Shown: positions 54,689 to 56,264 of the stretch, piece by piece | Numbering within the stretch: position 1 is the first letter of the stretch | Layout of the letters: the number at the start of each line of letters is the position of its first letter | Origin: Candidatus Uhrbacteria bacterium RIFOXYB12_FULL_58_10 | GTDB lineage: Bacteria > Patescibacteriota > Patescibacteriia > UBA9934 > GWF2-40-263 | Length of the DNA stretch: 57,875 nucleotides | Reading direction: 5' to 3' | NCBI GenBank assembly: GCA_001791645.1 | Contig: MGFA01000007.1 | Location: 1-57,875 of the forward strand | Program-made: the position numbers and the translations under genes | The notes under the pieces: model-generated | Seen by the model: only the letters and a program-made list of their open reading frames with translations | Databases searched by the model: none | Told to the model about the DNA's origin: nothing

Positions 54689-56038
54689 CTAATTGTAGCT
54701 GTCGACGATGCCATCATCGTTGTCGTCGTAGACGCACATCGGGGACTCGTCGAACCAGCACCATTGCCATTGGTCGCCATCGCCGTAATTTGAGAGGTTT
54801 TCTGAGTCTGCGAACCCACGCTCTACAAGAATCATCTCATAGGTCATGCCGATCCAAACGTCACCACGAGCCACCTTGTCGCACTGATCCTCCGTCCACG
54901 TCGGGTGTTCTCCGCAAATGACCCCGCTATTGTTGATTACGAAATCATAGGTTTCGTTTGTTCCCAATTTGTCCATCGGTAGGATGTATCCCGCAACGAC
55001 ATCGAGAGACGGTGCCTGGAAGACTAAAACACCGCTTTCTTTTTCACCGGGAGCAATAGGCTTGCCGGTTATATCGTCTTCGCCGTAACCATCGACTTCA
55101 TCGAAAACGGTATATGCCTTGTAGTCGCCGCCGGCTTCAATAAGCACGAACGAATCCGCGTTCAACGTCACGTCGTTATCGCTGATGTTCGTGACGTCAA
55201 CGTTCAAAATAATGAACCGTCCGTCTTCGTCGTAATTTCCGTTGGCGTCCACTGGATACGCAAATCCTGCTGATCCGCTAAGAAAAAGTTCCTGCGAAAT
55301 CGTGTTGATCACGAATTTGATGGTAGTAAACACAACCTCTTCACCCACGACCTTGAGAAAATACTCCTGGTCGGGATCGGTTACTGTCGAGTTGCCATCT
55401 TCGCCGACTTCCGGGATGAGGGAAAGGTCGGCATTCGTAATGCCGAGGCTCAGGAACCGCATGATTTGATATGCGGCATCACCATTTTTCATGTAGTACC
55501 TTTTGCCATCGGCGGGGTTCAGATACCACGCCTCGCCACGTGACTCCACCTGAAGCAGTATCCTGCCTCTGAGTGTGCTATTGAGCGACGCGTCATATTT
55601 TATGGAACCAGTCCCCAGCGGGTTGGTGTTCGTCTCCAGTACCTCCGACCCGTCGGAATAACCGTCGCCGTCAGTATCGGCCACGTTCGGATCCGTCCCA
55701 AGCCCTTCCTCAAGCGTGTCCGCGAGACTATCACCGTCCGTGTCCGTGTCTGCAAACCGCTCCTCTACGCCGACGGGCAATTTATTCAAGTCGTCGGTCG
55801 ATATGCCGAGACCGAAATCCCGCAACGCTTGGTAGGCTGCATCTCCGTCTTCGAGATAGGTGCGCTCTAACGTCACGGGGTCAACGTACCAGGATTCCCC
55901 GTGGCTTTCGACCTGTAAGAGTATCTGGCCAGACAGGCGTTGAGCGAGGTCGTCGCCAGCCATCGCTTGTTGGTTCGGGAAACCTACGGAGGATAGTAAC
56001 GTACCGACTAAAACAATCACGCTTAAAATCTTTTTCAT
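54689..56038 (-). CDS. Secreted surface protein with calcium repeats and Patescibacteria modules
   Basis: A 449-residue protein starting MKKILSVIVLVGTLLSSVGF (signal peptide, cleavage after AMA). Two copies of a module (GQILLQVESHGESWYVDP and GRILLQVESRGEAWYLNP, each followed by GDAAYQ..R..GLGI) are typical for Patescibacteria. Between them are calcium-binding repeats (DTDTDGDSLADTLEEGLGTD, DTDGDGYSDGSE). A DUF4352-like Ig domain (INDNDV-type NISDNDVTLNADSFVL) follows, and the end has DDNDDGIVDS. An extracellular adhesin or S-layer-like protein is likely. Its leader can fold in two ways. Confidence 0.82.
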   Translation of the reverse strand: MKKILSVIVLVGTLLSSVGFPNQQAMAGDDLAQRLSGQILLQVESHGESWYVDPVTLERTYLEDGDAAYQALRDFGLGISTDDLNKLPVGVEERFADTDTDGDSLADTLEEGLGTDPNVADTDGDGYSDGSEVLETNTNPLGTGSIKYDASLNSTLRGRILLQVESRGEAWYLNPADGKRYYMKNGDAAYQIMRFLSLGITNADLSLIPEVGEDGNSTVTDPDQEYFLKVVGEEVVFTTIKFVINTISQELFLSGSAGFAYPVDANGNYDEDGRFIILNVDVTNISDNDVTLNADSFVLIEAGGDYKAYTVFDEVDGYGEDDITGKPIAPGEKESGVLVFQAPSLDVVAGYILPMDKLGTNETYDFVINNSGVICGEHPTWTEDQCDKVARGDVWIGMTYEMILVERGFADSENLSNYGDGDQWQWCWFDESPMCVYDDNDDGIVDSYN

Positions 56039-56220
56039 ATGACCCTGCTTGGTGGGTTTTATCCGGCATTGGGCAAACACAAAGCCCGCCGCCAGCTCTT
56101 CCCCTTGCGGGGAACGTAACCCTTTCGGGATACGACCAAGCAGGATTGCTGAACGACGGGTTCAGTATCCTGCTTGGCTTTATTGCCATGCCGCGCTCAC
56201 GCACGGTTTAGGCTAAATTG
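56039..56220 (-). promoter_or_regulatory. Structured leader with mutually exclusive hairpins (riboswitch-like)
   Basis: In the message the leader holds CCAAGCAGGAT (from 56177), ATCCTGCTTGG (from 56146) and, beside the start codon, CCAAGCAGGGTC (from 56052). The middle segment can pair with either neighbour. The last one includes the AGGG ribosome site four bases before ATG, so pairing it would block translation. Between them are two hairpins with GNRA loops (CCCGAAAGGG, CCCCGCAAGGGG) and a GGCGGCGGGC/GCCCAATGCC stem. No known riboswitch class matches. Confidence 0.6.
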
Positions 56221-56264
56221 TAAGAAAAGTGTAATGGTTTCTAACTAAAAGAACAAGTACAATG

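Follow-up and report, generated by a model that had tools for sequence, protein, structure and literature searches.

A LOOT RNA preceding a secreted- or surface-protein gene in an Uhrbacteria genome: a probable cis-acting leader with candidate strand exchange at the start codon

Patescibacteria have tiny genomes, and little is known about their regulation. The window analyzed here is a stretch of 57,875 nucleotides from Candidatus Uhrbacteria bacterium RIFOXYB12_FULL_58_10 (contig MGFA01000007.1), in which a gene for a secreted or surface protein is preceded by a leader with an apparent choice of base-pairing partners. This arrangement raises the question of what kind of RNA the leader is, and whether it could control the gene that follows it. 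The initial annotation placed the leader at 56039-56220; all of its elements were present there on the minus strand, with the start codon falling just beyond the 56039 boundary.

The window leader is a LOOT RNA. The minus strand at 56214-56099 scored 86.1 bits with the Rfam covariance model RF03000, for which the cut-off is 46.4, and the match spans the full model (positions 1-121), including P1, P2, P3, and P4 as in the family itself. The initial annotation had stated that no known class matches, which was incorrect. A CRISPR-repeat identity considered for 56100-56114 was rejected, as the match was sub-threshold and corresponded simply to hairpin P4. LOOT was reportedly described in a 2017 paper; it is an orphan family listed in Rfam under the type "sRNA". 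In the literature found, the family receives passing mention only: it serves to illustrate families built from metagenomes (PMC7779021), is noted for its many cross-covariations (PMC7657543), and is listed with those given a better structure in Rfam 15 (PMC11701678). No mechanism is given for it there.

The Rfam model ends at P4, and four elements of the window leader fall outside it: the second pseudoknot strand, the U-rich element, the H5 hairpin, and the start-site copy of the P2 5' arm (Table 1). The two GNRA-loop hairpins recognized earlier are P3 and P4, and the GC-rich stem is H5. The P2 3' arm has two possible partners, as had been claimed, namely the P2 5' arm and its start-site copy, which ends 3 nt upstream of the ATG at 56038. 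The second pairing had been put at nine bases; the pairing itself held, but it is longer, with 11 consecutive pairs, one of them G-U, and 12 when the flanking A-U is included. Compared with dinucleotide shuffles, the leader fold had a z of -5.5, and none of 200 shuffles was as good. The pattern MCCAAGCAGGR occurs in the 1.12 Mb genome only at the P2 5' arm and the start-site copy; because of this uniqueness, and because other genomes show the same arrangement with sequences of their own, the window copy is not a product of chance.

Table 1. Elements of the LOOT leader and its gene in the window
Feature	Position	Strand	Basis
Probable promoter end: -10-like TACACT and start-proximal ACAAT	56219..56233 (TACACT 56233-56228; ACAAT 56222-56218 region)	-	inferred
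LOOT RNA core (P1, P2, P3, P4)	56099..56214	-	Rfam RF03000
P2 5' arm CCAAGCAGGAT	56167..56177	-	sequence; P2 of LOOT model
P2 apical loop segment CCCGTCGTT, one pseudoknot strand	56152..56160	-	9 pairs with 56093-56085
P2 3' arm ATCCTGCTTGG	56136..56146	-	can pair with 56177-56167 or 56052-56042
P3 hairpin, GAAA tetraloop	56115..56134	-	LOOT alignment
P4 hairpin, GCAA tetraloop	56099..56114	-	LOOT alignment
Second pseudoknot strand GGCGGCGGG, outside Rfam model	56085..56093	-	loop pairing across loci
Conserved U-rich element CUUUGUGUUU	56075..56084	-	column frequencies, 196 loci
H5 hairpin (GC-rich stem), competitor of the pseudoknot for 56093-56085	56063..56095	-	
Start-site copy of P2 5' arm CCAAGCAGGGT, SD-like AGGG inside	56042..56052	-	
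Downstream gene, 449 aa secreted/surface protein	54689..56038	-	start codon 56038-56036

Searches for LOOT were positive in 31 of 145 relatives, in 85 of 381 genomes from the class, and in 83 of 380 genomes across the phylum Patescibacteria (~22%, roughly a fifth). All 14 control genomes were negative, so that the family was present in Patescibacteria and absent from the controls. No LOOT was detected in the four other genomes of the window's genus (G001-G004), although they do have related surface-repeat proteins. Two separate sets of loci were analyzed: the DNA around 126 LOOT loci, 120 of which were scored for an arm copy, and at least 94 further loci obtained by a pattern scan of named genomes, including Levybacteria, Saccharibacteria, Lloydbacteria, Sungbacteria, and others. 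LOOT loci with common arms are not independent of one another.

A same-strand open reading frame of at least 80 aa begins within 150 nt after LOOT in 101 of the 120 loci, compared with 42 on the divergent side; by position, LOOT would thus sit in the 5' leader of the adjacent gene. Across 124 loci, an ACAAT motif peaks 9-11 nt upstream of LOOT, and -10-like TANNNT boxes lie 19-29 nt upstream. Since both signals precede LOOT, transcription probably starts a short distance upstream of it. Such a leader might also act by leader-peptide attenuation, in which a ribosome starting from an AUG in P1 would open P2 and free its 3' arm, and in the window the frame is indeed open through LOOT. Across loci, however, the P1-AUG frame runs for a median of 18 codons to a stop, compared with 8 and 12 for the other frames, and a stop occurs before 15 codons in 45%. 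Because this frame is not conserved, leader-peptide attenuation is disfavored, and we consider it highly improbable.

To assess how often the start-site copy recurs, the opening 11 bases of each P2 5' arm were sought within 130 nt downstream of LOOT, with a threshold of at least 9 of 11 matches; as a null, each arm was tested on the downstream DNA of other loci. A copy was present in 33 of 120 loci of the first set, compared with 1.7% of swapped pairs, and in 18 of 91 loci among the matches listed for the second set, compared with 1.9%. These two recurrence counts are the unbiased tests of the copy. The copies nearly always adjoin the start codon: where an ATG follows the copy (27 cases), 89% of the copies end at most 8 nt from it, at a median distance of 3, compared with 25% of background positions. 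In three loci (L117, L038, and L143) the copy is located just within the reading frame. At the level of sequence, therefore, the agreement between the copy and its own LOOT is far above chance, and the position of the copy is linked to the start codon. By eye, one match in each set (L098 in the first, L229 in the second) looks like a chance match.

Pairing was then counted by script over 30 distinct arms, one representative per arm, a set selected for having a copy. The predicted alternative helix between the P2 3' arm and the copy was 94.5% paired over these arms, P2 itself 94.2%, and copies shuffled among loci 44.5%, with a maximum of 55% in 2000 shuffles. Most positions of the alternative helix show three or four pair types. 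Wobble conservation was considered as proof of pairing beyond copying and set aside as weak, with 9 of 26 mismatches keeping the pairing against 5.7 expected. The expectation that the alternative pairing is kept in homologous leaders was borne out in part: it is retained with covarying sequence in ~20-28% and is absent from most others.

Several observations concern the spread of these elements. Genome G744 has seven LOOTs (L272-L278), each before a different gene; five have their own start-site copy, and the arms differ. At L268 (G523:C3 17612 and 17988), tandem LOOTs stand one before each of two similar short genes, which suggests that LOOT and gene were duplicated together. A near-identical P2 arm and copy (CCCAACCAC) precede different genes in different genomes at L015, L021, L033, and L046, perhaps through horizontal spread. 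The reading that start-site copies reflect chance or shared ancestry and have no regulatory role draws on the shortness of the copies (9-15 nt), on the many leaders that have none, and on the arms common to some loci. It is nevertheless very hard to reconcile with copy rates that exceed the swapped-pair null more than tenfold in each of two separate sets, with a position tied to the ATG, with the co-occurrence of H5 described below, and with 30 distinct arms.

The Rfam type raises another reading, in which LOOT is a trans-acting small RNA and the downstream gene is incidental or one of several targets. The sporadic distribution of LOOT and the lack of a local copy at most loci are consistent with it; the same-strand reading frame close behind LOOT and the location of the copies at the start of the adjacent gene argue against it. 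In eight genomes, a search for exact P2 arms yielded essentially the LOOT loci alone, plus a single additional match in G291. This near-absence of other exact sites in the eight genomes disfavors a trans-acting role through P2, and we regard this reading as improbable. LOOT is probably a gene switch and not a free-standing small RNA.

The leader also contains a predicted pseudoknot. Nine or more pairs can form between the P2 apical loop and a GC-rich strand just after P4 in 77% of loci, compared with 10% of swapped pairs, and a conserved U-rich element (CUUUGUGUUU, CUUUUUUGUUU) follows immediately after the pseudoknot strand. This strand can instead form the downstream hairpin H5. Taken alone, H5 showed only a moderate excess: at the score applied, 57% of loci had it, compared with 27% for swapped pairs. 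Among the 32 copy-bearing loci scored, 31 had H5, compared with 34 of 82 others (Fisher p = 1e-8), an association for which the score threshold and the list of copy-bearing loci were fixed after the data were seen.

These elements could also be taken to mean that LOOT is mainly a transcription attenuator, with the pseudoknot helix and U-rich run forming a terminator and the start-site copy adding a second layer in a subclass. The U-rich run lies directly after the GC-rich pseudoknot strand in nearly all loci, with or without a copy, and H5 competes with that strand, both of which fit this reading; a conserved G, however, interrupts the U-rich run (CUUUGUGUUU) in many loci. As an account of LOOT in general we consider attenuation unlikely. 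Copy-based exchange cannot be the sole mode of LOOT, since a copy is missing from about three quarters of its leaders; this copy-less majority could work by transcription attenuation through the pseudoknot and U-rich run.

Taken together, the evidence favors LOOT as a cis-acting 5' leader whose copy-bearing subclass, the window included, would control translation initiation by strand exchange; we assign this reading a probability of roughly 0.7. The window would then carry LOOT at the 5' end of the mRNA for the secreted or surface protein, acting in cis. In the first state, P2 would be closed, its loop could form the pseudoknot with the element after P4, and the start region would be left free, presumably giving the ON state. 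In the second state, the P2 3' arm would leave the 5' arm and pair with the arm copy at the start codon, the pseudoknot strand would fold into H5, and the ribosome would be blocked, presumably giving the OFF state. Sequence comparison shows the family membership, the alternative helix, the pseudoknot pairing, the link between H5 and the copies, and the arrangement in cis. On this model both states would occur in cells, and the balance between them would be set by a signal, whether a ligand, a protein, or an RNA. The initial annotation's switch-like logic is supported as a prediction: in the copy-bearing subclass, mutually exclusive helices, one of them over the ribosome site, would be tied to expression signals.

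Folding energies bear on this exchange. In nested folds, which exclude pseudoknot and ligand, the two states differed by a median of 3.3 kcal/mol over 34 copy-bearing leaders, and removal of the 5' arm in silico led 31 of the 34 to adopt the alternative form. In the window leader the P2 form was ahead by 8-10 kcal/mol, again by nested folding with pseudoknot and ligand excluded, and a stronger trigger would therefore be needed. This preference, together with the formation of P2 first during transcription, is a counterpoint to the proposed switch.

The genes behind LOOT indicate what might be regulated. The 449-aa window protein has a signal-like N-terminus, ILLQVES-GE-WY repeats, TSP3, and DUF4352. 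Similar repeats also follow LOOT at L019, L056, L098, and L123, and a C-terminal stretch with a WIGMT motif is common to the window protein (382-420) and the LOOT-led protein of L085. The 115 downstream proteins include zinc-ribbon proteins, staphylococcal-nuclease domains, and trypsin-like peptidases, as well as DNA methyltransferases, HsdR domains, and a GmrSD endonuclease. In one DNA methyltransferase cluster, all four members (L013, L015, L033, and L084) have a copy. Copy-bearing LOOT leaders precede DNA methyltransferase or restriction genes at these four loci and at L002, L021, L106, and L119. The evidence points to surface proteins and restriction-modification as candidates for regulated genes. 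More broadly, and more tentatively, since we hold this at slightly less than even odds, LOOT may constitute a large unrecognized riboswitch-like class in Patescibacteria, in which a pseudoknotted core senses a signal and a subclass exchanges a strand with a start-codon copy at envelope and restriction-modification genes. Independently of this broader reading, the evidence for a cis-acting leader with strand exchange at the start codon makes an unexplained "sRNA" a candidate switch that can be tested.

Among known systems, RNA thermometers share with LOOT the potential to cover the ribosome site by base pairing. Thermometers consist of one melting hairpin, whereas LOOT has two competing folds and a conserved core adjoining the site of strand exchange; the earlier suggestion of a thermosensor is accordingly unsupported. 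Translational riboswitches with pseudoknotted aptamers combine a structured 5'-leader core with mutually exclusive helices, one of which lies over the ribosome site. LOOT appears alike in both its 5'-leader core and its exclusive helices; it differs in having no known ligand, and in that its switching strand has an exact, locus-specific copy in place of a common anti-SD.
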